A stretch of 64,000 bases of DNA from Dehalococcoidia bacterium (lineage in GTDB: Bacteria > Chloroflexota > Dehalococcoidia > Tepidiformales > Tepidiformaceae), in contig JADZEI010000004.1 of assembly GCA_020850615.1 (NCBI GenBank), positions 186,001-250,000 on the forward strand, read 5' to 3'. Under the pieces are notes generated by a model, which saw nothing but the letters and a program-made list of their open reading frames with translations, did not search any database and was not told the origin of the DNA. Positions within the stretch are counted from its first letter, which is position 1; every line of letters begins with the position of its first letter. The position numbers and the translations under genes are program-made. Below, one piece after another: positions 31,860 through 54,637 of the stretch.

Positions 31860-32999
31860 ATGCGTGATCACGACCTGGTAGTGCAGCGAGTCGCGGAGAT
31901 CCGCGAACGGGCTACGCCGGACATCCAGTACTTCCTGCTCATCGCCCTCTCCTGCGTGCTCGCCACCCTCGGACTCGTCACGAACTCGGTCGCGGTCATC
32001 ATCGGAGCGATGCTCGTCGCGCCCCTGATCGGGCCGATCATGGGACTCTCGCTCGCCTCGATCCGGGACGAGCCCCGGATGTACGGCCGGTCGGCGGGCG
32101 CGCTCGCCACGGGCGTCATGGTCGCCGTCGCGCTATCGGCAATCGTGGCCATCCTGGCGCGCGAGCTGCCATTCGACGCCCTGGCCACCCTCCCGCCCGA
32201 AGTCGAAGTGCGCACGCGACCGTCCTTCTTCGACCTTGGCGTCGCTCTCGTGGGTGGCGCGGCCGGGGCCTATGCGGTCGCTCGCATGAAGGACGCCGCC
32301 GCCGTCATCGGCGTCGCGATCGCGACCGCGCTGATGCCGCCGCTCTGCTGCGTCGGCATCGGCCTGGCGATGTCGGACGGTGAGGTTGCGGGCGGGGCGT
32401 TCCTGCTCTTCCTCACGAACTTCGTGGCCATCCTCTTCGCCGCGCTGGTGGTGTTCCTCGCGCTGGGCTTCCGGACGAAGGGGCGCATCTGGGATGCGAC
32501 CCAGACCGTGCTTGCGGCGTCCGGCGTGGCGTTCGTCGCCGTCCTGCTGGTGTTCCTCACGCTTCGGACGGTCAACGATGCGCGACAGGAAAGCCGGGTG
32601 CGAAGGGCGGCGGACGACGCGGTCCACGACGTCATACCGGGGGCGGAACTGCTCGACCTCACGCGTGATTCGGCCGGAGCTCTGCTGCAGCTGCGCATCC
32701 GGGTCCAGGTGCCGGATGGCGCGAGCGAGGACGACGTGCGGGTCATCCAGCAGCACATCGCCGACGACCTGCACCGGCCGGTGGAGCTGACCTTTGTCGG
32801 CGTTCCGACGCTCGTGCTCAGCCGGGTGCAGCCCCAGGTGGAGCCAACGGCGCCTCCGACGCCGAGCCCGACGCTGGTAGTGACCCCGACGGCGACGCCC
32901 ACCGCAACGCGGACGCCCACCCCGGTGCCCACCCCCACGCCGACAGCAACCCCGCCGCTTCCGACGCCGCCCGGGTCAGGGTCGGGGCTCGCGAACTGA
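31860..32999 (+). CDS. DUF389 family integral membrane protein with Thr/Pro-rich tail
   Basis: 379 residues. The DUF389 core has about six transmembrane helices (IQYFLLIALSCVLATLGLV, SVAVIIGAMLVAPLIGPIMG, a segment near 80-100, ATALMPPLCCVGIGLAMS, FLTNFVAILFAALVVFLALG and GVAFVAVLLVFLTL). After it come a soluble domain of about 80 residues and a C-terminal tail of TATPT/TPTPVPT repeats. The tail is the Chloroflexota-style cell-surface linker, which suggests the C-terminus is outside. The transported substrate, if any, is unknown. Confidence 0.85.
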   Translation: MRDHDLVVQRVAEIRERATPDIQYFLLIALSCVLATLGLVTNSVAVIIGAMLVAPLIGPIMGLSLASIRDEPRMYGRSAGALATGVMVAVALSAIVAILARELPFDALATLPPEVEVRTRPSFFDLGVALVGGAAGAYAVARMKDAAAVIGVAIATALMPPLCCVGIGLAMSDGEVAGGAFLLFLTNFVAILFAALVVFLALGFRTKGRIWDATQTVLAASGVAFVAVLLVFLTLRTVNDARQESRVRRAADDAVHDVIPGAELLDLTRDSAGALLQLRIRVQVPDGASEDDVRVIQQHIADDLHRPVELTFVGVPTLVLSRVQPQVEPTAPPTPSPTLVVTPTATPTATRTPTPVPTPTPTATPPLPTPPGSGSGLAN

Positions 33000-33045: not shown

Positions 33046-34146
33046 TTAGCGGGGGGCGAGGTTTCGGCGCACGGCGGCCGCGAGGACCCGGAGCTTTTCG
33101 CGGCGGCGGCCGAGGAAGAGCAGCGAGGGCAGCCCGCCGCGGATGATCCCGTCCTCGGGCGCGAACTGCACCGCCCGGCGGAGTCGTAACCCGCGTTGCG
33201 GCTTCAGGGCGACGATGTCGTCGGGCGACCACGTCGCCCGGGCGATCTTCCGGTGCAGCCAGGGGAGCTCGCGATAGAGCCGCGTGGCAGCGGGCGGGAG
33301 CGGCGTCCCGAGCGTCGCCTGGAGCAGCGAGAGCGCCTGGGCAACGCTCGCGAGGCAGCCCTGCACTTCGGCGCGCTGTCGCACGATGGCCCAATCGACC
33401 GCCCGCTGGCGGATGATCAGATCGAGGTCTTTGAACCAGATGAGCCGGTTGTACCCATGGCGGTGCAGGTGGACTGCGAGGTGGACGATCAGGTCGTGCA
33501 ATTCGAGCACACGCGCCTCGCCCCGCCCGAAGCGCATGGGCTCGGAGCGCTCCCAGATGTCGTCCATGCTGACGGGTTCGAGGCCGATCTGGAGGTGGTC
33601 GCAGTGGACCTCAACGATGTGGCCCTGTCCTTCGTGCACGAAGATGCGCTGGAAGAGCCCGTGGCAGTGGTGGATGCGGCCTTCGTGGCCGTCTTCGTGC
33701 TGCTCGGTGTAGCCGCGCGCTTCGAGGAGCTCCCGGACGACCGGCAGGGCCGATTCGGCGACGAGGATGTCGACATCGCCGAAGGGACGAAGCCCGCGGT
33801 CGGGATAGAACGCGCCCGCCACGCCGGGGCCCTTCAGGACGACAACCGGCACGTCGTTGGCATTGAGGTGGTCGACGATGGTGCTCAGTTCGACCATCAG
33901 CGGCAGGGTTGCGAACGACTGGCGCTGGGCCGCCCGGAGGATCGGCCGAAGGAGCTCCTGGTCGTGGAGAACGGGCGATGTCCGCGCCGCGGCAGCCAGC
34001 CAGGGGGCGACGCGGTGGCGTTCGGCGAGGTCGGCCAACTCGGTCGTATCCGCGAGGGAGGCGATGGCCGACGCCGTCGCGAGGTCGAGCGATGGGCGTA
34101 GGCCCTGGCAGGACCGGCGGAGGATGCCGGGGAGCGCGTCGTTCAT
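33046..34146 (-). CDS. Lasso-peptide cluster nucleotidyltransferase (NTP_transf_5-like)
   Basis: 366 residues. The nucleotidyltransferase core is VPVVVLKGPGVAGAFYPDRGLRPFGDVDILV, with K105-G106, R120 and the metal-binding D124/D126 pair. This family (PF14907) occurs in lasso-peptide clusters such as paeninodin and pseudomycoidin, where it acts with the kinase to decorate the phosphorylated C-terminal serine. It is the last gene of the operon, 14 bases after the permease gene. Its place after kinase and exporter argues for tailoring of the lasso product. The actual modification cannot be predicted. Confidence 0.82.
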   Translation of the reverse strand: MNDALPGILRRSCQGLRPSLDLATASAIASLADTTELADLAERHRVAPWLAAAARTSPVLHDQELLRPILRAAQRQSFATLPLMVELSTIVDHLNANDVPVVVLKGPGVAGAFYPDRGLRPFGDVDILVAESALPVVRELLEARGYTEQHEDGHEGRIHHCHGLFQRIFVHEGQGHIVEVHCDHLQIGLEPVSMDDIWERSEPMRFGRGEARVLELHDLIVHLAVHLHRHGYNRLIWFKDLDLIIRQRAVDWAIVRQRAEVQGCLASVAQALSLLQATLGTPLPPAATRLYRELPWLHRKIARATWSPDDIVALKPQRGLRLRRAVQFAPEDGIIRGGLPSLLFLGRRREKLRVLAAAVRRNLAPR

Positions 34147-34160
34147 GGCTGTATCCCTCG

Positions 34161-34961
34161 TCAGTACTGTGCGAGCGAGCCGGCCCGGCGCGCGTGGGAA
34201 AGCGCCAGCCGCAGGGCGAGCAACCCGGCCGGCACCGTCAGCGCGAAGAGCGCCAACGCGCCGAAATGGACCCCGAGCGACGTCCGCGCCGCGTCCTCCA
34301 GGAGGAGCTGGCGCGCGAGCTCGAGCGAATGCGTGAGCGGGAGCAGCGGCGAAAACGCCTCGATCCAGCCCGGTAGCACGGACGGCGGATAGAGCCCGCC
34401 GCTGAGCATGAGCGAGGCCGCCAGCAACGCCCCGGAGAATGGCTCCGGTTGCTTGAATGCCACCACGAAGGCCGCCGCGAGCAGCCCGAGGCCGATGAGC
34501 GCGGCCATGGTCAGCACGAGCACCACGCCCACCATGAGGAGGTGGTCGGGGCTCACCTCGACGCCGAAGACGACCAGCCCGATGACGATGGCAAGCACGA
34601 GCTGCACGGCGGACAGGAGGATGGGGTAGGCGCCGCCGCTGAACACAATGGCGCCGGCGCTCGCCCGGGTGGTGAGCATCGCCTCGAACGTGCCGGTCAC
34701 CTGGGAGCCGCGCACGGCACCGGCGAACGACTTCACCGCCGGGTAGCTCAGGAAGCTCACCGCCATGCCGACGAGTGCGAAGGCGAAGTAGTCGCCGCCG
34801 TAGGGCGCGAGGTCCGGCGATGACGACCCGTCGAAGAGGTTGCCGACGAACTTGAGGCTCAGCAGCGAGAAGAAGAGCCCCGCATTCTGCGTGAGGAAGC
34901 TCATGCGGTAGCTCCAGGCCACCCGGAAGTCGCGGACAAGGAACGCCCGGAGCGTCTTCAT
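34161..34961 (-). CDS. ABC-2 type exporter permease of the lasso cluster
   Basis: 266 residues with about six transmembrane helices (MSFLTQNAGLFFSLLSLKFVG, FAFALVGMAVSFLSYPAV, the PILLSAVQLVLAIVIGLVVFG and HLLMVGVVLVLTMAALIGLGL segments, and ALFALTVPAGLLALRLAL). It follows the ABC-2/polysaccharide-type permease layout. It overlaps the ATPase gene by ATGA. Most characterised lasso clusters use a single fused ABC exporter (the D protein); here the exporter is split. It should export the mature lasso peptide and give self-protection. Confidence 0.85.
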   Translation of the reverse strand: MKTLRAFLVRDFRVAWSYRMSFLTQNAGLFFSLLSLKFVGNLFDGSSSPDLAPYGGDYFAFALVGMAVSFLSYPAVKSFAGAVRGSQVTGTFEAMLTTRASAGAIVFSGGAYPILLSAVQLVLAIVIGLVVFGVEVSPDHLLMVGVVLVLTMAALIGLGLLAAAFVVAFKQPEPFSGALLAASLMLSGGLYPPSVLPGWIEAFSPLLPLTHSLELARQLLLEDAARTSLGVHFGALALFALTVPAGLLALRLALSHARRAGSLAQY

Positions 34962-35971
34962 GCCAGTGCCTCCCGCGGGACGGGCGCGTGCAGCAGGCGC
35001 TGGAGGACGCCCTGGATTGGCGTGGTGCGCTGCAGGGCGCAGACGGTCACGCCCGATTCGGTGAGCTTCCCGAGGAAGTCGCCGAGGGCGAAGGTAGCGT
35101 CGGCCGCCCAGAGCTCGACCACCTGCTCGTCGCCCATCTGCGAGCAGAGCCGGAACTCGCGCACGCCGGGAAACGCCTGGCCCGCGGCGAGCGCAGCGCT
35201 CGACAGCGACCGCACGGTCAGTGTGAACCCGTCGAGGTCGGCGGTGACGGCGTGCAGCGAATCGGCGGTCGTTTCCAGCGCGACCCTGCCGTCCGCGAGG
35301 ATGGCGACCCGGCTGCAGAGCGAGAAGGCTTCCTGGAGCTGGTGCGTGACGAGGACCAGGCAACCGTCGGCCGCGTCGATCTCTTCGCGCACGAGCTGCC
35401 ATGCCTCGGCGGCGTGCGAGGCGTCGATGCTGCGGGTTGGTTCGTCCATTAACAACACTCGCGGGCGGACGAGCAGGGCGCGGGCGATCGCCAGCCGCTG
35501 CTTCATGCCCGTGGAGTACTGCCAGAAGCCCATGTCGGCGGCGGAAGAGAGGTCGAGCCGGTCCAGGAGCCGCCGGATCCGCTGCCGCGTGGCCGTCTTC
35601 GAAAGCCCGTTCAGGTCGGCGAAGAACTCGAGGTTCTGCCGGCCAGTGAGCCGCCAGTGGAAGCTCCGCTCGTCGGCGAGGACGTAGCTGACCAGCTCAC
35701 GGACCTGGCGGCCGGACCTGACCGCGTCGAAGCCGCACACCTCGACCCGGCCCGAATCGGGCGTGAGCAGCGTGGCGATCGACTTCAGGACGGTCGTCTT
35801 GCCGGCCCCATTCGCGCCGAGCAGCGCCAGGCGGCCGCCCGCCTCCACCTCGAACGTGACGCCGGAGAGGACCGGGACGCGGAGACGCTCGCGCCACAGC
35901 CGCCAGGACGGGCCGGATGCCCGGGCGAAGGCCTTGTGCACATCTTCCAGGCGCACCAGCGGCGCGGTCAT
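34958..35971 (-). CDS. ABC transporter ATP-binding protein of the lasso cluster
   Basis: 337 residues. Walker A GANGAGKTT is at 52-60, the signature YSTGMKQ at 152-158 and Walker B VLLMDEPT at 172-179, followed by the switch His in LVTHQ. A C-terminal 110-residue extension resembles that of ABC-2 drug/antibiotic exporters. It overlaps both neighbours (kinase and permease) by four bases, so stoichiometric translation is likely. Confidence 0.9.
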   Translation of the reverse strand: MTAPLVRLEDVHKAFARASGPSWRLWRERLRVPVLSGVTFEVEAGGRLALLGANGAGKTTVLKSIATLLTPDSGRVEVCGFDAVRSGRQVRELVSYVLADERSFHWRLTGRQNLEFFADLNGLSKTATRQRIRRLLDRLDLSSAADMGFWQYSTGMKQRLAIARALLVRPRVLLMDEPTRSIDASHAAEAWQLVREEIDAADGCLVLVTHQLQEAFSLCSRVAILADGRVALETTADSLHAVTADLDGFTLTVRSLSSAALAAGQAFPGVREFRLCSQMGDEQVVELWAADATFALGDFLGKLTESGVTVCALQRTTPIQGVLQRLLHAPVPREALA

Positions 35972-36960
35972 GACGACCGGGCGTCCTCGATGATGGCGCG
36001 CGCGAGCGCGGGCAGGTTCTCGAAGGTGCGCTGGTAGCGAACTTCGTGGAAGAGCCCGGCGCGGGCGATTGCGGCGGCCGCGCGGAAGCGGTGGGCGCCG
36101 CGCGCGCCAGTGACGAGGTCGGGCATGTACATCGAGCCTGCGAGCGCGATGGCGGAGGTGGCCGCGGGCGGCGTCGCGAAGCTGATGTGCGTGGGGGAGA
36201 GGCTGGGGAGCATCTGGTACACCGCCCGCAGTGGGTAGCTGTCCGAGGGCGGCGCCACGCGCGCGCTATCGAGCGGGACGCGCCGCTTGTCGATCCAGGT
36301 GAGCTGCGTTTCGTGGCACTCCGGGTCGTCGCCCAGCGATTCGATCGAGTCGTCGTAGAGCTTCATGCGCGGGATGTAGGACTGCACGGCGATCCTGTCG
36401 CCGGATACCTGGATGGGCAGCGTGTCGTCCGAAAGGATCGGGAAGCCGAGGCGCGCCATGTGCGCGATGAGGGTGGACTTTCCCCAGCCGCTCGGCGCGG
36501 TTACTGCGACAGCGGTGCCGTCGACCACGACAGCACCGGCGTGGAGCAGCGGGATGCCCATGAGCTGCAGGGCGGCGCCGAGGATGGGCCCGAGCAGGAC
36601 CTGCTCGACGTCGCCCGCGTGTGCCCACGGGTGCGGGGCGAACTGGACGCTCGTCCCGGACTGGTCGACCAGGAACTCGCCGACGGCGGTGACGGACCAG
36701 TAGTAGCCTTCGTCGCACTCCCAGGTGCGCCAGCAATGCTCGTCGTCGCCGAGCTCTCGCACGAGCGTGCCGTGCGGCTCGAGCCGGGCCGCCCGGGCGA
36801 TATGCAGAGTGGCGCGATCGTCGCGCGACCCGTACCCCGGCAGCCGCGGGAGGTCCCGGAACGGGAACTCCGAGCAGATGCCGACGCCGGCGATGCCGTA
36901 GTACCAGGCGGGCCGCCGGTAGGTGCTGATGGGACGTCGGGAAGGCGAAAGGAGCGTCAT
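35968..36960 (-). CDS. HPr-kinase-like lasso peptide kinase
   Basis: 330 residues. The C-terminal HPr-kinase fold has IPLLHAGAVVVDG, the P-loop APSGWGKST at 155-163 and the acidic pair in FPILSDDT (178-179). An N-terminal domain of about 110 residues is variable. HPr-kinase homologues in lasso clusters (PadeK, ThcoK) phosphorylate the C-terminal serine of the precursor. There is no PTS gene here, so a metabolic HPr kinase is unlikely. The gene starts 78 bases after the precursor stop, behind a strong hairpin. The core here ends Ser-Ala rather than Ser, so the target may differ. Confidence 0.85.
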   Translation of the reverse strand: MTLLSPSRRPISTYRRPAWYYGIAGVGICSEFPFRDLPRLPGYGSRDDRATLHIARAARLEPHGTLVRELGDDEHCWRTWECDEGYYWSVTAVGEFLVDQSGTSVQFAPHPWAHAGDVEQVLLGPILGAALQLMGIPLLHAGAVVVDGTAVAVTAPSGWGKSTLIAHMARLGFPILSDDTLPIQVSGDRIAVQSYIPRMKLYDDSIESLGDDPECHETQLTWIDKRRVPLDSARVAPPSDSYPLRAVYQMLPSLSPTHISFATPPAATSAIALAGSMYMPDLVTGARGAHRFRAAAAIARAGLFHEVRYQRTFENLPALARAIIEDARSS

Positions 36961-36981
36961 GTGGTGCTCGAATGGGTGTGG

Positions 36982-37015
36982 GGCTGGCGCCGGCGTATGC
37001 CCCCCGGCGCCAGCC
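36982..37015 (-). other. Perfect hairpin just downstream of the precursor gene
   Basis: 12-bp arms GGCTGGCGCCGG and CCGGCGCCAGCC around a 10-base loop, in the gap between the precursor and kinase genes. There is no T-run. It probably stabilises the upstream message or partly stops transcription, raising precursor over enzyme yield, as is common in RiPP operons. Confidence 0.7.
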
Positions 37016-37038
37016 GGGTTCGTATCCGACGGGTGGGC

Positions 37039-37170
37039 TCAGGCGGAACCCGTGGGCCGGGGCTTCTTTTCGAAAAGGCCCTCACTGAATTCCAAGGCGA
37101 AGGAACCGAGGGTGAGCGAGCGGATGTCGCCATGCTCGGAGAGCCGGGGCGCCTGGTACTGCTTCTTCAT
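37039..37170 (-). CDS. Lasso peptide precursor
   Basis: 43 residues, too short for most gene finders. Leader M1-L21 contains YQAPRLSEHG, the YxxPxLxxxG motif bound by lasso B1 proteins, and Thr20 at position -2, which B2 peptidases require. The core begins G22: ring segment GSFALEFSE, then tail GLFEKKPRPTGSA. Gly at core position 1 and Glu at position 9 fit a nine-residue macrolactam ring. The tail has bulky Phe at core position 12, two Lys, and Thr19/Ser21 as possible tailoring sites; the last residue is Ala. Its ATG overlaps the stop of the C gene, and the exact sequence AAGGAGGTGAT lies upstream. Cleavage and ring are inference from class rules. Confidence 0.9.
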   Translation of the reverse strand: MKKQYQAPRLSEHGDIRSLTLGSFALEFSEGLFEKKPRPTGSA

Positions 37171-39071
37171 TGCGTTATCACCTCCTTTCGTTTCATGGAT
37201 GCCGGGCCCGGCCGTTGGCCAGGTTGTCGGTAAAGGGAAGCGGGAGCCGGGAAGGTGCCCAGCCAGGCGCCGGCGGTAATGGCCCGCCAGTTCGGCTCCC
37301 AGCCCTCGTGGTCGTCCGCCAGCCAGCGGTCGACCTCCTCACGCACGGCTCGCCGGTCGACGCCGTCGACTCGGGCCAGCGCCGCCAGCGCCGCTTCGCG
37401 CCGGGCGGACTCGCGGCGTGCACCGTCGACCAGCAATTCTGAATAGAGGCCGAAGTCGTCCCGGTCCGGGATCGCCCGTGGCAGCACAGCGTATTCGGCT
37501 TCGCGGAGGATGTCCTTCCGGCGGCCTCGGAACCGTTTTTCGCTCTCCGGCACCGACGCGAGAAACTCGACGAGGCGCAGGTCATTGAACGGCGTACGCA
37601 GTTCGTTGCGGTTTACTCCGAACGCCCACCGGTCCCGCCAGCCGATGGTGAGGCCGGCGTGCTGGCGATAGAGGACCCACGTACGCCGGAGGCGCTCGCC
37701 GTCGCTCCAGCCTCCGGCCAGCTCATAGGTGAGGCCGTGCTTCCAGCCTCGATGTGTGTTCACGAAGGGCTGGACCGGGCAGCCTTGCCTGCCGCGGAGC
37801 TCCCGTATGCGGTTGCGGAGCGCGAACGGAAGGTAGGCGCTATACGCCGCACGAGCGAACAGGAGGGAGGCATTCCCCTTTCGCCGCGTCCTCGCCATCC
37901 TCCATGCCGAGATCAGGCGCAACTCGCGCACCTCGGACTCGATGGCCGGCATGCCGGTGAGCCATTCGTCGGCGCCTTCGCCGCCAAAAACGACGCCCAC
38001 GCCGTTTGCCGCCGCCGCGCGTGCCAGGGCAACGTGGGCGGGCGCCTGCGGCGGTTGCGCCGGGCTGTCGAAGGTTTCATCGCCAAGGACGGCGCTGCTC
38101 AGCGACCACCCGTCCGAGATGTCGACCAGCTGCTGTTCGAGGCCGAGGTGGTCGACGACCATCGCGGCATAATTGCGTTCATCCATCCAGCGGGTGGCGG
38201 GGTTGAACACGGTGAACGCGAGCGGCTTCGTGCCCTGCTCCGCCGCGATGGCGGCGATGTAGGAGGAGTCGAGGCCGCCGCTGAGGAAGACGCCGACCTT
38301 GCGGTTCGTGCGCAGGCGGGCGCGCATCGCCTCGGCGAAGAGTGCGCGGAACTCCTCGACATACTCCTCCGGCCGGGCCCCTCGCGGAAGGCGGCGGGTA
38401 CGGGGCCGGTCCCAGTACGTATGGACGGAGACGCAGCCGCGGTGGGCCGTGAGGACCTGCCCGCCGAGGAGCTCGGAGAGCCCGTCGTAGCAGGTGGTGT
38501 TCGGCTGCTGCAGCGCGTCGGCGAGGAAGCGCAGGAGGTAGTCGTGGTTCGGGCGGCGCTCGAGGAAGCCCCCGGCGAAGAACTGGCGCGGCTCGGTCCC
38601 GGCCATCAGCCGGTTGCCCTGTTTCGCCCAGTAGAGGCTGCGCCAGCCGAGGGGGTCCTTCGCGCAGACGAGACGGCGCTCGTGGGCGTCCCAGATCACC
38701 ACGGCCCAATCGCCGAGGAGGTGCTCGACGAAGTCCGTCCCCCACTGCGCGTAGGCGGCGGCGACCAGCTCGGCGTCCGTCGTGACTTCTCCCGCGCGGA
38801 GCTGGATGCCGAGCCGGCGCGCGAGGTCGTCGCGGTTATCCAGGCGGCCGTCCCAGGTGATCCAGTGGCGTCCGTCGAAGGTCGCGGGAAGAGCTTCGTG
38901 CTCGGCCTCGGCGGTCGTGGGCAGGTTGACGTGGCCCAATACGGCTGGCCCGCCGGACCAAAGCACCGGCTGCCGGTCGCCGCGGTGGGCGATCGCGTCG
39001 AGGTGCGGGCGCGCGGACTCGATGTCGAGCGCGTCACCGCGGAGGTCCACAAGGGCAAGGATGCCGCTCAT
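37167..39071 (-). CDS. Lasso macrolactam synthetase (asparagine synthetase-like, C protein)
   Basis: 634 residues. The N-terminal glutaminase-like domain starts MSGILALVD, so the catalytic Cys2 of true asparagine synthetases is Ser, and no glutamine hydrolysis is expected. The synthetase domain has the ATP pyrophosphatase motif SGGLDSS at 264-270 and GGEGADEWLTG further on. In lasso pathways this enzyme adenylates the side chain of Asp/Glu at core position 7-9 and closes the ring on the new N-terminus. It overlaps the B2 gene by ATGA upstream and the precursor ATG downstream. Confidence 0.9.
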   Translation of the reverse strand: MSGILALVDLRGDALDIESARPHLDAIAHRGDRQPVLWSGGPAVLGHVNLPTTAEAEHEALPATFDGRHWITWDGRLDNRDDLARRLGIQLRAGEVTTDAELVAAAYAQWGTDFVEHLLGDWAVVIWDAHERRLVCAKDPLGWRSLYWAKQGNRLMAGTEPRQFFAGGFLERRPNHDYLLRFLADALQQPNTTCYDGLSELLGGQVLTAHRGCVSVHTYWDRPRTRRLPRGARPEEYVEEFRALFAEAMRARLRTNRKVGVFLSGGLDSSYIAAIAAEQGTKPLAFTVFNPATRWMDERNYAAMVVDHLGLEQQLVDISDGWSLSSAVLGDETFDSPAQPPQAPAHVALARAAAANGVGVVFGGEGADEWLTGMPAIESEVRELRLISAWRMARTRRKGNASLLFARAAYSAYLPFALRNRIRELRGRQGCPVQPFVNTHRGWKHGLTYELAGGWSDGERLRRTWVLYRQHAGLTIGWRDRWAFGVNRNELRTPFNDLRLVEFLASVPESEKRFRGRRKDILREAEYAVLPRAIPDRDDFGLYSELLVDGARRESARREAALAALARVDGVDRRAVREEVDRWLADDHEGWEPNWRAITAGAWLGTFPAPASLYRQPGQRPGPASMKRKEVITQ

Positions 39072-39505
39072 TGTTCACCTCCCGTGGTGGCCGGCTGCAC
39101 GAACCGCATGTGGGCAGAACGGTCCGATGTGACCTGCTGGTCATCGATGATCCAGCCGGCGAGCTCGACCCAGGCGTGGGCACGCAGGCGGCCGTCTTCG
39201 ATGCGCGTTCCGATGCAGACCGGTGCCCGCAGGCCCTTGGTCCGGAACATCTCGTGGGTGACGAGCGCGGTTTGGAGGCATTTCACTTCCAACGGCCAGA
39301 TGCGCTTCGCGCGCCAGACGGCCCGCGCCACCCGCCAGACGTCCACGCCGAGGAGGTCGACATCCGCCGCGTCGCTGGGACGGGTGTCCACAGCCTGCCG
39401 CGTGGCACGGGCGGCCGCGCTGGCGCCGCCGAGGCGGAGCACCAGGCTCGAGGTCGCCACCATGCCGAGCGCCCGGGCGGTGTCCATGGCCGCTCCCCAG
39501 CTCAC
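39068..39505 (-). CDS. Lasso leader peptidase (transglutaminase-like, B2 protein)
   Basis: 145 residues. The Cys-His-Asp triad is C76 in EVKCLQTAL, H110 in RAHAWVEL and D121/D122 in GWIIDD, as in lasso B2 proteases, which cut after the leader residue following the conserved Thr. The N-terminal 65 residues are helical. It is a separate protein from B1, the split arrangement usual in Gram-positive-type clusters, and overlaps both B1 and C genes by four bases. Confidence 0.9.
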   Translation of the reverse strand: MSWGAAMDTARALGMVATSSLVLRLGGASAAARATRQAVDTRPSDAADVDLLGVDVWRVARAVWRAKRIWPLEVKCLQTALVTHEMFRTKGLRAPVCIGTRIEDGRLRAHAWVELAGWIIDDQQVTSDRSAHMRFVQPATTGGEQ

Positions 39506-39783
39506 CGGGCGACGACCAGGCCGCGGTCGATGAGGGCGGAGACGAACGACTCGATGTCGCGTGCCAGTTGCCCTTCGGGCGCTTCGAACTGATCCATGAG
39601 GGCGGTTTCGATGGTCTCCAGGCCATCGCCCCGTTCGAGGCCTTTCCAGATGTGCGCACCGACTTCGTTTGCCGAGAAGTACATCCCGGAATCCAGGTCC
39701 AGAATGACGATGTCGGTGCCGACTTCCTGGGCCAGCACCGAAGGTGAGACAGAAAGCACGGCAGGCGCGGTGGGTGCGGTCAC
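39502..39783 (-). CDS. Lasso RiPP recognition element (PqqD-like, B1 protein)
   Basis: 93 residues from GTG 39783, with GGAGA before it. The PqqD fold shows as LAQEVGTDIVILDLDSGMYF, NEVGAHIWKGLERGDG, and DIESFVSALIDRGLVV. It binds the YxxPxLxxxG part of the leader and presents the precursor to the B2 peptidase and the C synthetase. It is the first gene of the eight-gene minus-strand operon. Confidence 0.88.
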   Translation of the reverse strand: MTAPTAPAVLSVSPSVLAQEVGTDIVILDLDSGMYFSANEVGAHIWKGLERGDGLETIETALMDQFEAPEGQLARDIESFVSALIDRGLVVAR

Positions 39784-39963: not shown

Positions 39964-40764
39964 TCAGGAGTCCTGCCCGCGCCGCTCGAGCATGTAGCCG
40001 GTGCCACGGAGGTTGAGGATGTGTTCGTGCGCCGGGCAGACCTCGCGCAGCTTGCGGCGCATCCGGAGGACGTGGACCTTGAGCTGGCTGACGGCGGACG
40101 TGCTGGGCTCCGGGATGCCCGCGGCAACCAGGATGGCACCGGGGGACATGACGCGACCAGGGGACGAAGCCAGCGCCGAGAGGATGGCGAACTCCATCGC
40201 TGTCAGCTGCACGCTGCGGCCCTGGCATTCCACCATCCGGCGGACCGGGTGGAGGATGAGGTCGCCCACCACTTCGCTCGTCCCGCTCGTGCTGCGCTGG
40301 GCGTGACCGGTGCGGGTGAGCCGGAGCACGCTGCGGACCGTTGCCTCGAGGATGGCGATGGTGTCGGATTCTCGCAGGTAGAGATCGGCGCCGGCGTCGA
40401 GGGCCTCCAGGATACCTGGAACGTTGAACCGCGCGACGACGAGGAGAATGACGGCATCGGTTTGGGCACGGATTGCGTGGACGATCTCGCAATCCCGGGT
40501 ATCCGCAGCATCAACGACGAACAGGATGAGCGCCGGGTCGAGCTGGCGAATGAGCTCGAGGGAGTGCTCGTCGAAGGGGCGTTCCGTCACGCTGAGCCCC
40601 TGCCGCATGAGCATCGAAATCGTCCTGGCGGCCTGGTACGGGCGGCGATTGAGGACAATCGCGACTTTGTCCGGGCGCTGCTGGTCTTCCCAGGATTCCT
40701 GTCCCTGGTTCACGGTTTCTGCTGCCCCCAAGAGGCGGAAACGTTCTGGCGCGATGGCGGACAT
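39964..40764 (-). CDS. OmpR-type winged-helix regulator with degenerate receiver domain (regulator 1)
   Basis: 266 residues from ATG 40764, which has GGGAG before it; ATG 40842 is an alternative. The receiver-like part (KVAIVLNRRPYQAARTIS ... ILFVVDAADTRD) lacks the paired acidic residues after strand 1 and the conserved Lys (LYLRESDT), so normal phosphorylation is doubtful. The C-terminal winged helix is intact (VQLTAMEFAILSALASSPGRVMS, HVLRMRRKLRE, LRGTGYMLE). It is the regulator closest to the lasso operon, 180 bases upstream on the same strand, and a candidate controller of it. Confidence 0.8.
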   Translation of the reverse strand: MSAIAPERFRLLGAAETVNQGQESWEDQQRPDKVAIVLNRRPYQAARTISMLMRQGLSVTERPFDEHSLELIRQLDPALILFVVDAADTRDCEIVHAIRAQTDAVILLVVARFNVPGILEALDAGADLYLRESDTIAILEATVRSVLRLTRTGHAQRSTSGTSEVVGDLILHPVRRMVECQGRSVQLTAMEFAILSALASSPGRVMSPGAILVAAGIPEPSTSAVSQLKVHVLRMRRKLREVCPAHEHILNLRGTGYMLERRGQDS

Positions 40765-40966
40765 CGGACTCCCTGCGTCTGACATGGATGCGTCATCGGG
40801 GGCCGGCTCGGGGTCCTCGGCCTGGTCACGGGACTCGTCCATATCTACGCCGTCACTCTCCACTCCGTCGTCAGGATGGGCGTGGTATCCGGCACGGCCG
40901 TCATGCCAGGCGTTGGCTCCCGCCCGGTGGCTGCCCACCGGGTGCTGGCCTCTCGCTGGATGTCGC

Positions 40967-41002
40967 TCGAACCGCCGGACGCGGTGGCGTCCGGCGGTTC
41001 GA
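40967..41002 (-). other. Perfect hairpin in the leader of regulator 1
   Basis: 14-bp arms TCGAACCGCCGGAC / GTCCGGCGGTTCGA with an 8-base loop. It lies in the 466-base gap 40765-41230, which has no supportable gene, upstream of regulator 1. No T-run; a leader RNA structure or a binding site. Confidence 0.55.
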
Positions 41003-41155
41003 ACTGCGTGTGGCGGGGCAGTCCCGGTGGAGAGATCGCCCGTTCCCCGCCAACGCAACCGCCAACCTTGATGCAGTCCGCGTGGGGGGCAACGCAGCAC
41101 GAACTGAGGTGCGCAGCGTGGCCGCTGCCTGTAAAGGGATTGTGGAGTGGCGGTA

Positions 41156-41184
41156 GCATGGCCGGATCCAACATCCGGCCATGC
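41156..41184 (-). terminator. Perfect hairpin after regulator 2
   Basis: 12-bp arms GCATGGCCGGAT / ATCCGGCCATGC around a 5-base loop, 47 bases beyond the stop of the gene at 41231 and preceded by a further GGCCGGG/CCCGGCC stem. It probably ends the regulator 2-3 message or structures the leader of regulator 1. Confidence 0.55.
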
Positions 41185-41230
41185 AAGAGTGGGCCGGGCG
41201 GAGAACCTCGTAACCCGGCCGGGCCGCTCT

Positions 41231-41920
41231 CTATCGGACGTCGGGGCCGATCAGCAGCGTATAGCCCAGGGTGTGCTTCGACTTGATCTTGACCGGGACG
41301 CCGCCGGCCTTCTCGAGCTTGCGGCGGAGGTGGCACACATGGGTGCGAATGAGCGACGTATCGGGGTCTTCGAGGACCCCCCAGCCGAACGAGAGGAGCC
41401 GCTCAGCGGGCGTGAGGTTCGGCGAGTGCGCGGCCAGGCAGTACAGGACGCGGACTTCGAGCGGCGTCATTGCCAGGTCCTGGCCGTTCTTCCGCACGCG
41501 GTAGCGCTCGGCATCGACCACCAGGTCGTGCAGTTCGACGCGCTGTTCGGCGGATTCCTCGGGTTGAGCCGGACGCGCCCAGGCTTCCAGCCGGAGCAGC
41601 AGCTCGAAGGGGTCGTAGGGGGCGGGAATGACGTCGTGGGCTCCCGCCCGGAAGAGCTCGGCTCGTGCCGCGGCCCTGCGCGCATCCCCGACAACGAAGA
41701 CGGTGGCAGCGGGGAGCGCTTCGCGGGCCGTCCGCACTTCATCCGGCGCAAGCGGCTGGCCAGATGGCTGGACGAGGGCAACGGCTGACGGAGTGAATGG
41801 CAACGGCCGGCGCAGTTGCTCGGCCGATTGGAGGGTGACGACGCTATGGTGATGCCGCCGGGCAGCGAAGGTGAGGAGCTCGCCGTTGAGCTCGCCGGAT
41901 TCCACAACTGCGATACGCAT
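41231..41920 (-). CDS. OmpR-type winged-helix regulator with degenerate receiver domain (regulator 2)
   Basis: 229 residues from ATG 41920 with AGGAGG before it. The receiver-like domain starts MRIAVVESGELNGELL with one acidic residue, has Gln/Pro (ALVQPSG) where the phospho-accepting Asp should be, and no conserved Lys (VIPAPYDPFELL). The DNA-binding half is good (DLAMTPLEVRVLYCLAAHSPNLTPAERLL, SLIRTHVCHLRRKLE, TLGYTLL). It is an atypical, probably phosphorylation-independent regulator, translated one base after regulator 3. Confidence 0.82.
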   Translation of the reverse strand: MRIAVVESGELNGELLTFAARRHHHSVVTLQSAEQLRRPLPFTPSAVALVQPSGQPLAPDEVRTAREALPAATVFVVGDARRAAARAELFRAGAHDVIPAPYDPFELLLRLEAWARPAQPEESAEQRVELHDLVVDAERYRVRKNGQDLAMTPLEVRVLYCLAAHSPNLTPAERLLSFGWGVLEDPDTSLIRTHVCHLRRKLEKAGGVPVKIKSKHTLGYTLLIGPDVR

Positions 41921-41921
41921 C

Positions 41922-42623
41922 TCACGCCTCCTGTGCATCGGCAACGAACGAGTAGCCGACGTTGTGGATGGTCTGGATGTAGCGATCAGGCGCCCCCGCC
42001 TCGTGGAGCTTCTGCCGCACGGCGCTCACGTGCCCCTTCAAGAGGGTCGAGTCCTGGAAGTTCAGGTAGCCCCATATCCGGCTGGTGAGGTACTCATAGG
42101 TGAGGACCTCACCGGGGTAGGAAAGCAGCTCCGATAGCAGTTCAGCTTCGGTGGGCGTGCACTTCAGGTCGCGGCCGCGGAAGGTCACGAGCGGCTCGCT
42201 GGAATCGATGGAAATACCCGCGGCTTCCACGCGCCGGATCGAGCGCGCCGTGTTCGCGGTCCCGGTGGTCCGGCGCGCAACTGCAGAGACACGGGCGAGC
42301 AACTCGTTGGGGTGGAACGGTTTCGTCAGGTAGTCGTCGCCGCCCTGCTCGAGTCCCTGGACGATGTCGCCCGGGGCATCGAGCGTCGAGAGGAAGACGA
42401 CGCCCAGGTCGTTCGCCCCGGCCTTGAGCGCACGGCAGAGGTCGAAACCGGAGCCATCGGGCAGCATCACATCGACGATGGCGAAGTCCGGGGCGCGGCG
42501 CTTCGAGAAGCTGAGCGCGGCGCCGGCGGAAAACGCCTTCACGACTTCGTGGCCACCCCGCTTCAGGGTGTACTCGATCAGGGCTGCGTAGTCTTCGTCG
42601 TCATCGACAACCAGCGTCAACAT
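41922..42623 (-). CDS. OmpR-family response regulator (regulator 3)
   Basis: 233 residues. The receiver is complete: acidic DDD in VVDDDEDYAALI, phospho-acceptor Asp in FAIVDVMLPDGSGFDL, Ser in FLSTLDAP and Lys in YLTKPFHPNELL. The winged helix follows (CTPTEAELLSELLSYPGEVLTYEYLTSRIWG, LKGHVSAVRQKL, NVGYSFV). It is the only regulator in the block able to take phosphate normally, and the small histidine kinase at 43508 is its likely partner. GAGGAG precedes the ATG. Confidence 0.88.
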   Translation of the reverse strand: MLTLVVDDDEDYAALIEYTLKRGGHEVVKAFSAGAALSFSKRRAPDFAIVDVMLPDGSGFDLCRALKAGANDLGVVFLSTLDAPGDIVQGLEQGGDDYLTKPFHPNELLARVSAVARRTTGTANTARSIRRVEAAGISIDSSEPLVTFRGRDLKCTPTEAELLSELLSYPGEVLTYEYLTSRIWGYLNFQDSTLLKGHVSAVRQKLHEAGAPDRYIQTIHNVGYSFVADAQEA

Positions 42624-42633
42624 GGTGTGCTCC

Positions 42634-43332
42634 TCAGGCGGACTTCTGCGGCAACGGGACCGGGCGGGTTCGCCCGCGCGGTAGTTCGCGGCCCTGGGCC
42701 CTGGCGATCAAACTGGCGCGACTCGATGTGTCGAGCTTGATCGCGAGGGAGTGAATGTGTGTGCGCACAGTGCTCGGTGAAATCGTCAATGCGGCGGCGA
42801 TTTCGTCGTTGCTCAACCCCTGCGCAACCAGGAGCAGGACTTCCTGTTCTCGCACCGTCAGAGAAGGAAGCGACGGTGGAGCTGGAGCTTCTGCAGGCCG
42901 TCGCAACGCAGCTTCGGCAATCCACTGCGCGGCTGAGTGCGACAGGTAGAGCGAGTCCGACGAAAGCAGCGCGCGGAACGCGAGATCGAGTTCTTCTGCT
43001 TTGGACCCGAGGGTGATCGCGGCCGACGCACCCATGGAAATGGCCTCGGCGAGCTCTTCGGATGCGTCCCACTCGCCCGCCACGAACATCCACCGCGTCG
43101 TTCCGACGAGATCGATCCGAACGGCCTGGCCCACGGTGTCATCGCAGTGCTCGGTGATCTCGACGCACCGCCACCGGACCTCGAGGTAGGAAACCAGGAG
43201 TTTCCGAAGGACACTTTCTGCCGACCGTACCTGGACGACCTGCGTGGGTTTCCGGCACTCCGGGGTGCGTTTCCGACGTCCTGCCGCTGACGGCGGTCCG
43301 CCGCCAGCTCGCCTTTCTATGTCCACTGTCAT
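42634..43332 (-). CDS. LuxR-type regulator with receiver-like N-terminus (regulator 4)
   Basis: 232 residues. The C-terminal GerE/LuxR helix-turn-helix is canonical (LTVREQEVLLLVAQGLSNDEIAAALTISPSTVRTHIHSLAIKLD). The N-terminal part ends with AEAISMGASAAITLGSKAEELDLAFRALLSSDSLYLS, which resembles the last third of NarL-type receivers, but the Asp and Lys of the active site are missing. A basic N-terminal tail of 35 residues precedes it. A near-consensus promoter lies upstream. It reads into regulator 3 after ten bases. Confidence 0.82.
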   Translation of the reverse strand: MTVDIERRAGGGPPSAAGRRKRTPECRKPTQVVQVRSAESVLRKLLVSYLEVRWRCVEITEHCDDTVGQAVRIDLVGTTRWMFVAGEWDASEELAEAISMGASAAITLGSKAEELDLAFRALLSSDSLYLSHSAAQWIAEAALRRPAEAPAPPSLPSLTVREQEVLLLVAQGLSNDEIAAALTISPSTVRTHIHSLAIKLDTSSRASLIARAQGRELPRGRTRPVPLPQKSA

Positions 43333-44243: not shown

Positions 44244-45401
44244 TCACTCGCTCCGAAGCCGGTCGAGGAGCGGGCGGCGCTCCTTGCCGGAGCGAGGCGT
44301 CCTCGCTGCAGCGGCCCTGGTGAGCGCCAGGATCCGGGCGCCGTTGATGCGCGAATCGAAGTGCTGCTCCGCGTGCGCCCGCGCGCGAGCAGCCAGCTGC
44401 TGTCGAAACGCAACGTCGGAGCGCAACCGGTCGATCGCCTGCACCCAGTCCGCTTCGACGGCTGGGCGGGCGATGAGCCCGGTTTCTTGGTGCACGACGA
44501 TGTCCGGGATGCCACCGACACCGGAAATGACAACCGGCAGCCCGGACGCCATCGCTTCGAGGGCTGCGAGCGAGGAGAGGTCCAGGCTAGTCGGCAGGAC
44601 GAAGCAATCGGCTGCGCGGTAGATCGCCCGCAGCTCCGGTGAGGTGGGTTCGAGGCCGAGATGGAGCCGTATGCCGGCCGTTGCCTCCAGCCGCTCGCGG
44701 TCGTCTGCAGCGAGCTCGGCCGGCGAGGTCACGACGTCGAGCTCGCAGCCGGGCAGGGCGCCGCGCTCGAACAGGCGTAGCAGGAGGTCGCCGCCCTTGC
44801 GGCGGAAGTCGGCGCCGACGAACAGGAGGCGGAACGACCCTTCGTGCGGTGTAGGTTCGCGGTATTCCCACCGCGTGAGGTCAATCCCGGGATGCACGAC
44901 GACCGTGCGGGCGGCCGCGGCCGGGAACGCGTCGGCGGTCATCGCCGCGGTGAAGTTCGACCATGGGACGAAGACGGTGATGCGGCCGAGCACTTTCTTC
45001 CGCAGGAACTCGCGGAGGCCGCGCGTGGGCAGCGGGATGGGTGAGGCGAACGTCCCGCCGGGCGCGTAGGCGCCGTCGTACCAGTACACGATTGGCTCAC
45101 ACCGGCGCAGCGCCCAGTGGAGCAGCCCGTAGTGCACGAGCGTCCCGTAGGCGTGGATGATCGTGGCATCGGGCGGGCGGTGGAGCAGCAGGCCCGCGAG
45201 ATTGAACACGTTCCGGACCCTCATTCGCAGGAACGACGGCAGGCGTGCGGTCCAGTCGGTCTCCGCGTACGTCCGGACCCGTACCCACCGAGGCGATACC
45301 TCGCGGTCGCCGTCCACCACTGGCCGGAAGCCCAGGTAGCGGGTCCGGTTTCCCGCAAGGGTCACCAGGGCGATGTCCAGTCGAAGAGCGCGACGAGTCA
45401 T
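44244..45401 (-). CDS. Glycosyltransferase family 4 protein
   Basis: 385 residues, GT-B fold. The C-terminal donor domain has FRLLFVGADFRRKGGDLLLRLFE, ELRAIYRAADCFVLPTSLDLSSLAALEAMASGLPVVISGVGGIPDIV (the EX7E-like segment). It adds a sugar from a nucleotide donor during polysaccharide assembly. It resembles the gene at 60296 (shared PWSN, GIDL/GVDL, VGADFRRKGGD patterns). It is the first glycosyltransferase of the locus and has the 16-bp element upstream. Confidence 0.87.
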   Translation of the reverse strand: MTRRALRLDIALVTLAGNRTRYLGFRPVVDGDREVSPRWVRVRTYAETDWTARLPSFLRMRVRNVFNLAGLLLHRPPDATIIHAYGTLVHYGLLHWALRRCEPIVYWYDGAYAPGGTFASPIPLPTRGLREFLRKKVLGRITVFVPWSNFTAAMTADAFPAAAARTVVVHPGIDLTRWEYREPTPHEGSFRLLFVGADFRRKGGDLLLRLFERGALPGCELDVVTSPAELAADDRERLEATAGIRLHLGLEPTSPELRAIYRAADCFVLPTSLDLSSLAALEAMASGLPVVISGVGGIPDIVVHQETGLIARPAVEADWVQAIDRLRSDVAFRQQLAARARAHAEQHFDSRINGARILALTRAAAARTPRSGKERRPLLDRLRSE

Positions 45402-45451
45402 GTCAGATGCTTAGCCTCGCAACGATCAGAACGCCGGCCCGTGCAGGCCGC

Positions 45452-45467
45452 GTTGAGCGCGAGTGAA
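45452..45467 (-). promoter_or_regulatory. 16-bp element upstream of the glycosyltransferase gene
   Basis: GTTGAGCGCGAGTGAA, identical to 39838-39853 and in the same orientation and distance from the start (51 bases). Further upstream are an imperfect palindrome GTTTC-N6-GAAAC (45505-45520) and, for the plus-strand side, a direct repeat GCTCAA-N5-GCTCAA near 45595-45610. Confidence 0.5.
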
Positions 45468-45649
45468 GGCCGTTCGAAGCGCGGGGGAGCTGCCGACGAC
45501 GGGTGTTTCGAACGTGAAACCACGCTGAGTTCGCATCCAGCAACCGCACGACGTCGCAACTCGCGGCACGCCCGGCAACGCCATCTCGATCGGTGCTCAA
45601 TGTTGCTCAACGAGATTCGGACATGAGCCGATGGCACAGGACGGGACAC

Positions 45650-46249
45650 ATGACTGCGGTTGCCACACGTCACTCTTCGCGGATCCTGCACCGCCTGGAG
45701 GAGGAGGCCGGCCGGGTACGCCGGATGGGCCTGCTCCGGCTGCGAGCGGCGAACGCGCTCTCCCTTGCCATTCCTGCGCTGACGTTGACGACGCTGCGGG
45801 CCGCCCTCTACCGGCGAGCGGGGTTTCGGATCGCCCGCCGGGTGTCGTTCCAGGGCCGCGTCCATATCCTTGGTCCGGGCCCGGAACTCTACTCGCGGCT
45901 GCGCATCGGCGAAGGCACGACGCTCGGCATGGACGTAGCGATCCAGCTGGATGCGGACGTCACCATCGGTAGCAATGTCGCGGTGGGGCCGGGCGTGCGG
46001 ATCCATTCCGGCACGCACATGCTCGGGCCGCGGTCCTGCCGAATGAACCGGTCCGTGGTCGGGCGGTCGGTCGTGATCGAAGACGGCGCCTGGATAGGAG
46101 CATCTGCGCTCATCCTGCCCGGCGTCACCATCGGCGAGGGGACGGTCGTGGCGGCCGGCTCGGTCGTATCGGAGAGCCTGGCGCCGAACGTGCTCGCCTC
46201 GGGCAACCCGGCCATCGTCACCCAGCGGCTGCCATGGGCCGACCGGTGA
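45650..46249 (+). CDS. Left-handed beta-helix acyltransferase (hexapeptide repeat)
   Basis: 199 residues from ATG 45650; ATG 45623 in the same frame is possible. The N-terminus is helical with a hydrophobic stretch (ALSLAIPALTLTTLRAALY). Hexapeptide repeats run from about residue 75 (LRIGEGTTLGMDVAIQL, VTIGSNVAVGPGVRIHSG, VVIEDGAWIGASALILPGVTIGEGTVVAAGSVV). It transfers acetyl or a related acyl group, probably onto sugars of the exopolysaccharide. The PPTase gene overlaps its end. Confidence 0.85.
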   Translation: MTAVATRHSSRILHRLEEEAGRVRRMGLLRLRAANALSLAIPALTLTTLRAALYRRAGFRIARRVSFQGRVHILGPGPELYSRLRIGEGTTLGMDVAIQLDADVTIGSNVAVGPGVRIHSGTHMLGPRSCRMNRSVVGRSVVIEDGAWIGASALILPGVTIGEGTVVAAGSVVSESLAPNVLASGNPAIVTQRLPWADR

Positions 46250-46665
46250 CCAGCGAGCGAGCGGCTGTAGCGGCGGAGATCGAGGCAGGGCTTCGGCGAA
46301 TCGCCGGGCCTGTCGCCGTCGGCGTCGATGTCGAGCCGGTCGACTCATTCCGCCGGCTAGCGTTCGTCGACAACCGGCGGCTGTACGAGCGGCTGTTCAC
46401 CGCCGCGGAGATCGCCTACTGCCAGGGACAGGCCGACCCGGCACAGCATTTCGCCGCCCGGTTCGCCGCGAAGGAAGCGGTCCTCAAGGCGGGCGGGGCA
46501 GCTCTTGGCCTGAACGTGAGCCAGGTCGAGGTTGTCCGAAGATCGGACGGCGAACCGGTGCTGCGGATCTTCGACGGTGGCGCCGGCGACGAGGCGTCGT
46601 TCCGGGTCAGCCTGGGGCACACGCACGAGCTGGCCTACGCCGTCGCCGTGATGGCCGGGGCCTGA
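46234..46665 (+). CDS. acpS: Holo-ACP synthase-type 4'-phosphopantetheinyl transferase
   Basis: 143 residues. AcpS signatures are VGVDVEPVDSF (Mg-binding Asp) and HFAARFAAKEAVLKAGG (Glu/Lys of the WxxKEA-like motif), then SLGHTHELAYAVAV. It moves phosphopantetheine from CoA to an ACP serine. The ACP gene two genes downstream is the obvious substrate, so this may be a dedicated rather than housekeeping enzyme. GTG 46246, overlapping the previous stop as GTGA, is an alternative start. Confidence 0.85.
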   Translation: MGRPVTSERAAVAAEIEAGLRRIAGPVAVGVDVEPVDSFRRLAFVDNRRLYERLFTAAEIAYCQGQADPAQHFAARFAAKEAVLKAGGAALGLNVSQVEVVRRSDGEPVLRIFDGGAGDEASFRVSLGHTHELAYAVAVMAGA

Positions 46666-46668
46666 GCG

Positions 46669-48900
46669 ATGTCCACCGAGGAGGACGTCCGAGTAACCGC
46701 GTTCCGCATTCAGCTCGCGGTCGACGATGGGGCGCTGGACCAGGCGTCACGTGACATCGCCGGCCTCGCATCGCGCCCGGAAACACGGTCGCTGGTGGCG
46801 CCGCTGCTGGTGCGGCTCGGCGCGGCAAAGCTCGCGGCCGGGAATGCCGAGGCCGCCCTGCAGGCCGCCCGGGATGCGCTGGCCATCGACGAGAACACGC
46901 CCGGGGGCGCGGAGCTCGCGGCTCGCGCGGCAACGCTGGCGGGGGCGCACCACGAAGCCACAGCGCACCTGGCACGCCTCGCCCGGGGCGGCGCGCCCGG
47001 GGACTGCCTGCGGCTCGCGCGTTCGCTGCAGCGAACCGGCGATACGGAAGCGGCCCGCGCCGCGGCCACCCGGGCGGTGCGCGGAGACCAGGACGGGAGT
47101 GTCCTCGCGGCCGCCGCCGATGTGTTCGCGGCCATTGGAGCGCCCGGCCCGGCGACGCCGATTCGCGTTGCCTTCGCCGGGTCGTCGACGCTCGAGCCCG
47201 TGGCCGCGGCGTTCCGCGCGCTGGCCGCGGCGGAAGGTTTCGCGGCGGAGACGTGGCTTGCGCCCTTTGGCCAGTACGCCGAGCAGCTGCTCGACCCGTC
47301 GAGCGGCCTCTACGGCTTCCAGCCGCAGCTGGTGGTCCTCGCTGTCAGTGGCCGCGCGATCGTGCCCGCGATCTACGGCGATCCGCTCTCGATGGACGCC
47401 AACACCCGCCGCATGGCCGCCGAAGGGGCCGCGGACGAGCTCATGGGCATGGTCCGCGCGGCGCGGGCAAACAGTAGCGCCACGATCCTCGTGCACCTCG
47501 CGGCTACGCCGGCGCGGTCGCCGATCGGGATGCTGGACCGGGCCATTCCCTACGGGCAGGCCGAGACCATCGCCCACTTCAACAGCCGCATCTCCGCGGC
47601 CGCGCGGGAGATGCAGGGCGTCTATCCGGTCGACCTGGACCGCCTGGTGGCGGCCCTCGGGGAGGGCGGGGCGTTCGACCGCAGGACCGAGCTCCTCGCG
47701 CGGATCGAAGCCGGGCCGCGGCTGGCGAGCGCACTGGGCGAAACCTACCTCGCCGCCGCCCGCGCGCTGCTCGGCAAGTCGCGCAAGTGCCTCGTGACCG
47801 ACCTGGACAACACGCTCTGGGGCGGAGTGGTGGGCGAGGATGGCGTTGCGGGCATCCAGCTGGGCCACGACTTCCCGGGCAGCGCCTACCGCGCGGTACA
47901 GGAGGAGCTACTCGCGCTCAAGCGCCGCGGCGTGCTCCTCGCGATCAGCAGCAAGAACAACGAGGCGGACGCCATGGAGGTGCTCGAAGGGCACCCGGAC
48001 ATGGTGCTTCGACCGCGTGACTTCGCCGCTATGCGCATCAACTGGCGGGACAAGCACGAGAACCTCGTGGAGATCGCCCGGGAGCTCAACATCGGCCTGG
48101 ACTCGATCGTCTTCCTGGACGACAACCCGGCCGAATGCGCGATGGTGCGGGCGGCGCTCCCGCAGGTCGAAGTGGTCAACCTGCTGGGCGACCCGGCCCA
48201 TTTCGCGGGCATCGTCCGGCGGCTCACGCACTTCGATACGCTGCAGCTCACCGACGAAGACCTGCGCCGGACGGAGATGTACGCCCAGGGCCGGGAGCGG
48301 ACCGCATGGGAACGCGCCCACGCAACGACAATCGAGGAGCACCTCCGCGAGCTCGGCCTGGTGCTCGATGTTGCGCCTGCGCCGGACCACGCGATCGGAC
48401 GGGTCGCGCAGCTCCTGGCCAAGACCAACCAGTTCAACACCACCACGCTCCGGATGCCCGACGACGCGGTGCGCTGCTGGGCCACGACCGAAAGGCAGGG
48501 CGTGCTCTGCGCGCGGGTGCGCGACCGGTTCGGTGACCATGGGCTGGTCGGGGTGGCCATGTGGAGCCGCGCCGGCGACGAGGTCACCATCGACACGTTC
48601 GTCCTGAGCTGTCGCGTGCTTGGACGCGGGGTGGAGCGCGCCTTCCTGGCCGCCGTGGTCGACGACGTCCGCGCCCGCGGCGCGTCACAGGTCCGCGGCC
48701 GGTTCATCCCGACCGCGAAGAACGCGCCGGCCGCCAGTCTGTTCCGCGACTGCGGCTTCGAACAGCTATCCGCCACCGATTGGATGCTGGACGTCCGCGA
48801 ATCGACGGTGGAGCCGCCGGCATGGATTACGACCACTACTGAAGCGCCCGGGCGCGGGTCCGTGGCAGCGCCCGCGATGGAGGTGTCCCTTGTCTCTTGA
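46669..48900 (+). CDS. FkbH-like HAD-IIIC family protein with TPR-like N-terminus
   Basis: 743 residues. Residues 1-160 are TPR-like helices (AAKLAAGNAEAALQAARDALAIDENTP), 165-370 an SGNH-like part, the HAD-IIIC phosphatase core starts with DLDNTLWGGVVGEDG at 378, and the C-terminal 150 residues are GNAT-like (LSCRVLGRGVERAFLAAVVDDVRARG). FkbH proteins dephosphorylate bisphosphoglycerate-derived thioester and load a glyceryl unit onto an ACP. With ACP and PPTase genes on either side it would make an ACP-bound C3 unit, possibly a donor for polysaccharide decoration. Confidence 0.88.
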   Translation: MSTEEDVRVTAFRIQLAVDDGALDQASRDIAGLASRPETRSLVAPLLVRLGAAKLAAGNAEAALQAARDALAIDENTPGGAELAARAATLAGAHHEATAHLARLARGGAPGDCLRLARSLQRTGDTEAARAAATRAVRGDQDGSVLAAAADVFAAIGAPGPATPIRVAFAGSSTLEPVAAAFRALAAAEGFAAETWLAPFGQYAEQLLDPSSGLYGFQPQLVVLAVSGRAIVPAIYGDPLSMDANTRRMAAEGAADELMGMVRAARANSSATILVHLAATPARSPIGMLDRAIPYGQAETIAHFNSRISAAAREMQGVYPVDLDRLVAALGEGGAFDRRTELLARIEAGPRLASALGETYLAAARALLGKSRKCLVTDLDNTLWGGVVGEDGVAGIQLGHDFPGSAYRAVQEELLALKRRGVLLAISSKNNEADAMEVLEGHPDMVLRPRDFAAMRINWRDKHENLVEIARELNIGLDSIVFLDDNPAECAMVRAALPQVEVVNLLGDPAHFAGIVRRLTHFDTLQLTDEDLRRTEMYAQGRERTAWERAHATTIEEHLRELGLVLDVAPAPDHAIGRVAQLLAKTNQFNTTTLRMPDDAVRCWATTERQGVLCARVRDRFGDHGLVGVAMWSRAGDEVTIDTFVLSCRVLGRGVERAFLAAVVDDVRARGASQVRGRFIPTAKNAPAASLFRDCGFEQLSATDWMLDVRESTVEPPAWITTTTEAPGRGSVAAPAMEVSLVS

Positions 48901-54613: not shown

Positions 54614-54637
54614 CGGGCACGCCCCTGGAGGGGAACG

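Follow-up and report, generated by a model that had tools for sequence, protein, structure and literature searches.

The minus-strand operon at positions 33046-39783 of the window, the whole 64,000-nucleotide stretch of DNA that was analysed here and that belongs to an uncultured Chloroflexota bacterium, is, judged from sequence and with high confidence, a lasso-peptide operon. Its eight genes, in the order B1-B2-C-A-K-D1-D2-NT, form a complete gene set for the synthesis, probable phosphorylation and export of a lasso peptide. All features that define a lasso cluster at the sequence level are present, i.e., the B2 peptidase, the B1 recognition element, the cyclase C, a precursor leader with Thr(-2) and the ring residues, in a class II-like set with a core devoid of Cys, and they support the lasso-peptide interpretation of the original prediction. 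The cluster type is already described: it is a kinase and nucleotidyltransferase lasso cluster like those of paeninodin, pseudomycoidin and bsf. New are its undescribed core and a subfamily of five loci with ABC-2 exporter, kinase and nucleotidyltransferase, in a class that is poorly sampled. The tailoring is the interesting part, namely how a lasso kinase picks its acceptor when the precursor carries no C-terminal Ser.

Searches with curated models and Pfam recovered all eight genes with the families that had been predicted for them; all operon features below lie on the minus strand. The description of the genes as tightly overlapping is close to correct, with 4-nt overlaps at five of the seven junctions (B1/B2, B2/C, C/A, K/D1 and D1/D2) and short gaps of 78 nt and 14 nt that separate A from K and D2 from NT. 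B1 (39502..39783) starts with GTG at 39783, the searches having used 39502-39780. It is a discrete RiPP recognition element of the PqqD fold (PF05402, E 1e-15) with predicted leader binding, and its best PDB match is TbiB1 (5v1u/5v1v, E 3e-9). It stays below the threshold of the lasso_PqqD models NF033530/NF033536, which counts against the lasso reading. The transglutaminase-like leader peptidase B2 (39068..39505) matches PF13471 (Transglut_core3) and reaches 59.8 bits with NF033537 (lasso_biosyn_B2, cutoff 33). The proposed residues C76, H110 and D121 are all there, and the Cys column and the His column (AHAW) are near-invariant in 37 Chloroflexota B2 matches. C (37167..39071) is an asparagine-synthetase-like lasso cyclase (PF00733, E 2e-43), with Ser at residue 2 in contrast to the catalytic Cys of glutaminase domains. 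Its match to the lasso cyclase model NF033535 (E 1.5e-76) lies under the strict cutoff of that model and also counts against the lasso reading.

The precursor gene A (37039..37170) encodes 43 amino acids, MKKQYQAPRLSEHGDIRSLTLGSFALEFSEGLFEKKPRPTGSA, with a leader at residues 1-21 and the 22-residue core GSFALEFSEGLFEKKPRPTGSA. For this core the calculated monoisotopic mass is 2354.19 Da, or 2336.18 Da after loss of one water. The YxxPxLxxxG motif, Thr(-2), Gly1, Glu9 and the core length can all be read in it as predicted. The leader model NF033521 (lasso_leader_L3) matches A at 27.5 bits (cutoff 19), and the leader columns Y, P, G and T are conserved across 15 Chloroflexota precursors. Since NF033521 detects A, the gene is within reach of standard annotation pipelines, and it is doubtful that the precursor was overlooked, as had been claimed. 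DNA with 69% G+C often has short reading frames, and A might be such a chance frame with the true precursor elsewhere. However, a DNA pattern search for Y..P.L...G with T(-2) and G1 gave two matches in the whole 4.17-Mb genome, one of them A, and a control pattern gave five. From these counts about 0.01 matches are expected in the 6.7-kb operon, so that chance is a poor explanation for A, and the pattern revealed no second convincing precursor anywhere in the genome. That A is a real gene follows from its Shine-Dalgarno sequence, the leader match above cutoff, the 4-nt overlap with C and a syntenic precursor with 70% identity in a relative; a chance frame is extremely improbable.

This relative, Dehalococcoidia bacterium SJ161 (locus L023, JADLBJ010000020.1), is the closest named one. 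Its cassette has the identical gene order with 59-89% protein identity (74% for C), and its precursor MKKPYEAPKLSEHGDIRSLTEGEYQLDFSESGIWKKPRPQTGSN is 70% identical to A and takes the same place. No description of the SJ161 cassette was found in the literature. The leader, Thr(-2), Gly1, Ser8 and Glu9 are common to both precursors. The two cassettes are alike in ring pattern, hairpin and ribosome site, but the SJ161 core has 23 instead of 22 residues and is diverged (GEYQLDFSE...). As Gly1 and Glu9 are kept in this diverged core while Glu6 is replaced by Asp6, the comparison gives independent support for the proposed nine-residue Gly1-Glu9 ring, and a threaded Gly1-Glu9 macrolactam is the predicted product. 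A match search of the core against PDB sequences found none, which for such a short query is weak evidence. Literature searches on lasso peptides yielded a single mention, in one paper, for Dehalococcoidia and nothing for Tepidiforma.

The Shine-Dalgarno sequence of A, GAAAGGAGGTGAT (37177..37189), lies within the 3' end of C, occupying its last codons. It is a near-perfect ribosome site, with a 12-nt complement to the anti-Shine-Dalgarno sequence of the 16S rRNA 3' end in its generally known form. This 12-nt match occurs once in the window, both strands considered, and SJ161 retains AAGGAGGTGAT of it. Between A and K a GC-rich hairpin with a 12-bp stem and no T-tract (36982..37015) reaches a z-score of -3.2, with none of 200 shuffles equally stable. 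The SJ161 counterpart has a z-score of -3.6 and maintains the stem despite one C-G to T-A exchange; a strong hairpin stands at the same place in L029 but not in L031. The hairpin probably affects expression, and since it has no T-tract, transcript protection or attenuation is likelier than a standard terminator. Replacement of the intergenic region between lasso genes A and B and removal of hairpins are reported expression strategies (PMC7549694), so that such a role is not new in kind. A scan for sigma-70 promoters found nothing, and terminator-like sites occurred at chance level only.

Directly upstream of B1 and in the same direction, four consecutive regulator genes (39964-43332, minus strand) encode three OmpR-type and one LuxR-type DNA-binding domains; the first two proteins have the C-terminal DNA-binding domain but match no receiver family in Pfam. 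A role of the four genes in regulating the lasso operon is possible; they were left out as cluster members, the closest match of RR1 in the SJ161-like genome G645, which is 78% complete, being only 28%; in the SJ161 contig the region upstream of B1 is cut off. On the other side, a DUF389 membrane protein (31860-32999, plus strand), whose low-complexity tail is rich in Pro and Thr and has a tandem repeat (32897-32954), is convergent with the operon. Further away, around 44244-63697, translations judged by eye suggest a surface-polysaccharide type cluster with glycosyltransferases, flippase-like and polymerase-like membrane proteins, and Wzz-like, FkbH-like and serine-acetyltransferase-like proteins. 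In this region, 51839-54613 and 54719-56053 (plus strand) encode adjacent secreted-looking proteins that have a long similar domain (HSRRP-TWH/Y-ME-MEAQHGP...) and are a probable tandem duplication; in the former, a Thr/Pro-rich linker joins this domain to a glycoside-hydrolase-like one.

K (35968..36960) is an HPr-kinase-like peptide kinase with H140, G158-x-G160-K161-S162, D178 and D179, as looked for in phosphorylated-lasso clusters. No Pfam family matched K, and its hit to the curated NCBIfam model TIGR04352 (E 1.4e-7) is below cutoff, which counts against phosphorylation by K. A profile built from 18 relatives of K has the HPr kinases 1ko7, 1jb1, 2qmh and 3tqf as its four best PDB matches, and the catalytic H, G, K and D are invariant among the relatives. 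The AlphaFold model of K, built from two sequences only, has a mean pLDDT of 33 and is too unreliable to count as support. NT (33046..34146) is an NTP_transf_5 nucleotidyltransferase-like protein (PF14907, E 7e-47; 80% identical in SJ161) whose K105, D126, H181, H226 and W252 are invariant in 15 relatives. Through this family match the operon has the nucleotidyltransferase gene that marks phosphoglycosylated lasso peptides such as pseudomycoidin, and by analogy NT presumably performs a second tailoring step on the phosphate. D1 (34958..35971), an ABC transporter ATPase of the drrA type (TIGR01188, E 2e-58; 89% identical in SJ161), and D2 (34161..34961), an ABC-2 permease (PF01061, ABC2_membrane, E 8e-18; 86% identical), are the presumed exporter pair.

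A terminal Ser, the usual sign of a phosphorylated lasso peptide, is missing, as the precursors end in Gly-Ser-Ala in the window and Gly-Ser-Asn in SJ161. Reviews describe the C-terminal lasso kinases as specifically recognising a C-terminal Ser (PMC8498205), and the lack of the terminal Ser that the characterised enzymes require speaks against a phosphorylated tail here. Of the Chloroflexota loci that carry K, 15 have a candidate precursor, chosen by motif and weak in L039, and ten of these precursors end in Ser or Thr. Because K keeps its catalytic residues, its target is probably the penultimate Ser21 or else, as for BsfK, a Ser in the ring. As the nearest relatives end in Ser, the history is explained most simply by one added residue, with Ser21 as the likeliest acceptor; we put phosphorylation of Ser21 tentatively, at a little under an even chance. 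More tentative is the fuller reading that K phosphorylates the penultimate Ser of a Gly-Ser-X end and the NTP_transf_5 enzyme then builds on this internal phosphate. If true, this would add a third kind of acceptor site to the C-terminal Ser of the paeninodin type and the ring Ser3 of the bsf type, and the tail of a lasso peptide from a Dehalococcoidia lineage would be phosphoglycosylated internally.

The main rival to Ser21 is a ring residue, Ser8 or, in the window species only, Ser2, phosphorylated as BsfK does at Ser3. BsfA likewise has no C-terminal Ser (PMC10368454), and SJ161 shares Ser8, the neighbour of the Glu9 that closes the ring. However, precursors ending in Ser accompany the kinases that are nearest in the tree (those of L029, L030 and L031), the window pair keeps a Ser one residue before the end (GSA, GSN), and a phosphate beside Glu9 might hinder ring closure, all of which makes a ring acceptor unlikely, though a serious competitor. 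The Gly-Ser-X end could also be reconciled with the C-terminal Ser rule reported for such kinases (PMC8498205) if the terminal Ala (Asn in SJ161) were trimmed, leaving Ser21 at the C terminus of a canonical phosphorylated lasso peptide; in the relatives L029 and L040, GS is itself the end of the precursor. But the operon contains no carboxypeptidase gene, and lasso kinases are reported to act before folding (PMC9266682), so that the precursor itself would need to be trimmed, and we regard trimming as rather improbable. An untailored lasso peptide, with K and NT inactive on A, would fit both the absence of the canonical acceptor and the weak matches of K to curated kinase models. Yet K and NT share 73-80% identity with their SJ161 counterparts and keep all catalytic residues, and we consider an untailored product quite improbable. 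Phosphorylation at Ser21 remains the reading that we prefer.

The distribution of the cassette bears on its history. DNA homology between the window and the SJ161 contig, which ends inside B1, stops one base past NT, and the genes downstream of NT differ; the cassette therefore seems to move or to be retained as a unit. Across 38 genomes of the family to which the host belongs, just two have a close C, namely the host itself and G645 (74% identity); the latter probably is SJ161 or close kin. L029 and L031 also have the complete order B1-B2-C-A-K-D1-D2-NT, and L030 follows it as far as its contig end within D2. In the C tree these three loci group with the window with strong support. The K tree joins the window pair and L029 with strong support and the five-member group with weaker values (83/82). 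All five loci use a separate ABC-2 permease, while many other loci have a long ABC protein. Set beside L029/L031, the window/SJ161 pair offers a natural experiment on how a kinase chooses its substrate. Lasso B2 scored above the curated cutoff in 26 of 400 sampled Chloroflexota genomes, so that the phylum is not poor in lasso clusters and such clusters are not very rare.

Some of the other Chloroflexota loci are unusual in themselves. L041 (4922-5505) has two near-identical tandem precursors, one ending in Thr and the other in Ser, beside one kinase, which makes the locus a natural test for the acceptor that the kinase prefers. The precursor cores in L030 (3839-3994) and L031 (5140-5295) would start with Thr if Thr(-2) holds (VTA followed by TLKQFGLAD), an unusual first ring residue. 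In L037, two cyclases and two kinases surround one precursor that ends in Phe.

From these data we infer the following pathway, with the roles of B1, B2, C, K and NT drawn by analogy from paeninodin, pseudomycoidin and bsf (PMC9266682, PMC8498205, PMC10368454). B1 would bind the YxxPxLxxxG leader and present the precursor, and K would phosphorylate a core hydroxyl before folding, most likely Ser21 near the C terminus. B2 would then cut after Leu(-1), and C would activate Glu9, join it to Gly1 and thread the 13-residue tail. Like the pseudomycoidin nucleotidyltransferase, NT may subsequently attach a group to the phosphate, and D1/D2 would export the product. The strong ribosome site before A and the hairpin after it would probably yield more precursor than enzymes.

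In comparison with known systems, where reviews are the source for pseudomycoidin and paeninodin, the pseudomycoidin cluster of Bacillus pseudomycoides resembles the window in having B1, B2, C, kinase and nucleotidyltransferase, and pseudomycoidin is a phosphoglycosylated lasso peptide for which addition of phosphate and then sugar was proposed (PMC8498205). In this Firmicute a C-terminal Ser of the precursor is phosphorylated, whereas the window has a penultimate Ser and an ABC-2 exporter pair. The paeninodin (PadeK) and ThcoK/SyanK systems also combine an HPr-kinase-like tailoring enzyme with split B1 and B2, and their kinase acts on the precursor before folding. However, their acceptor is a C-terminal Ser, which is absent in the window, and their gene order is C-A-K-B1-B2-D as opposed to B1-B2-C-A-K-D1-D2-NT (PMC9266682, PMC5067487). 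The bsf cluster of Bradymonas sediminis is like the window in its kinase, its nucleotidyltransferase and a precursor without C-terminal Ser. It differs in Ile(-2) and the phosphorylated ring Ser3, whereas the window precursor has Thr(-2), no Ser3, and Ser2 and Ser8 in the ring (PMC10368454), and the first Gly of the BsfK motif (G163) corresponds to Ala155 in K of the window.
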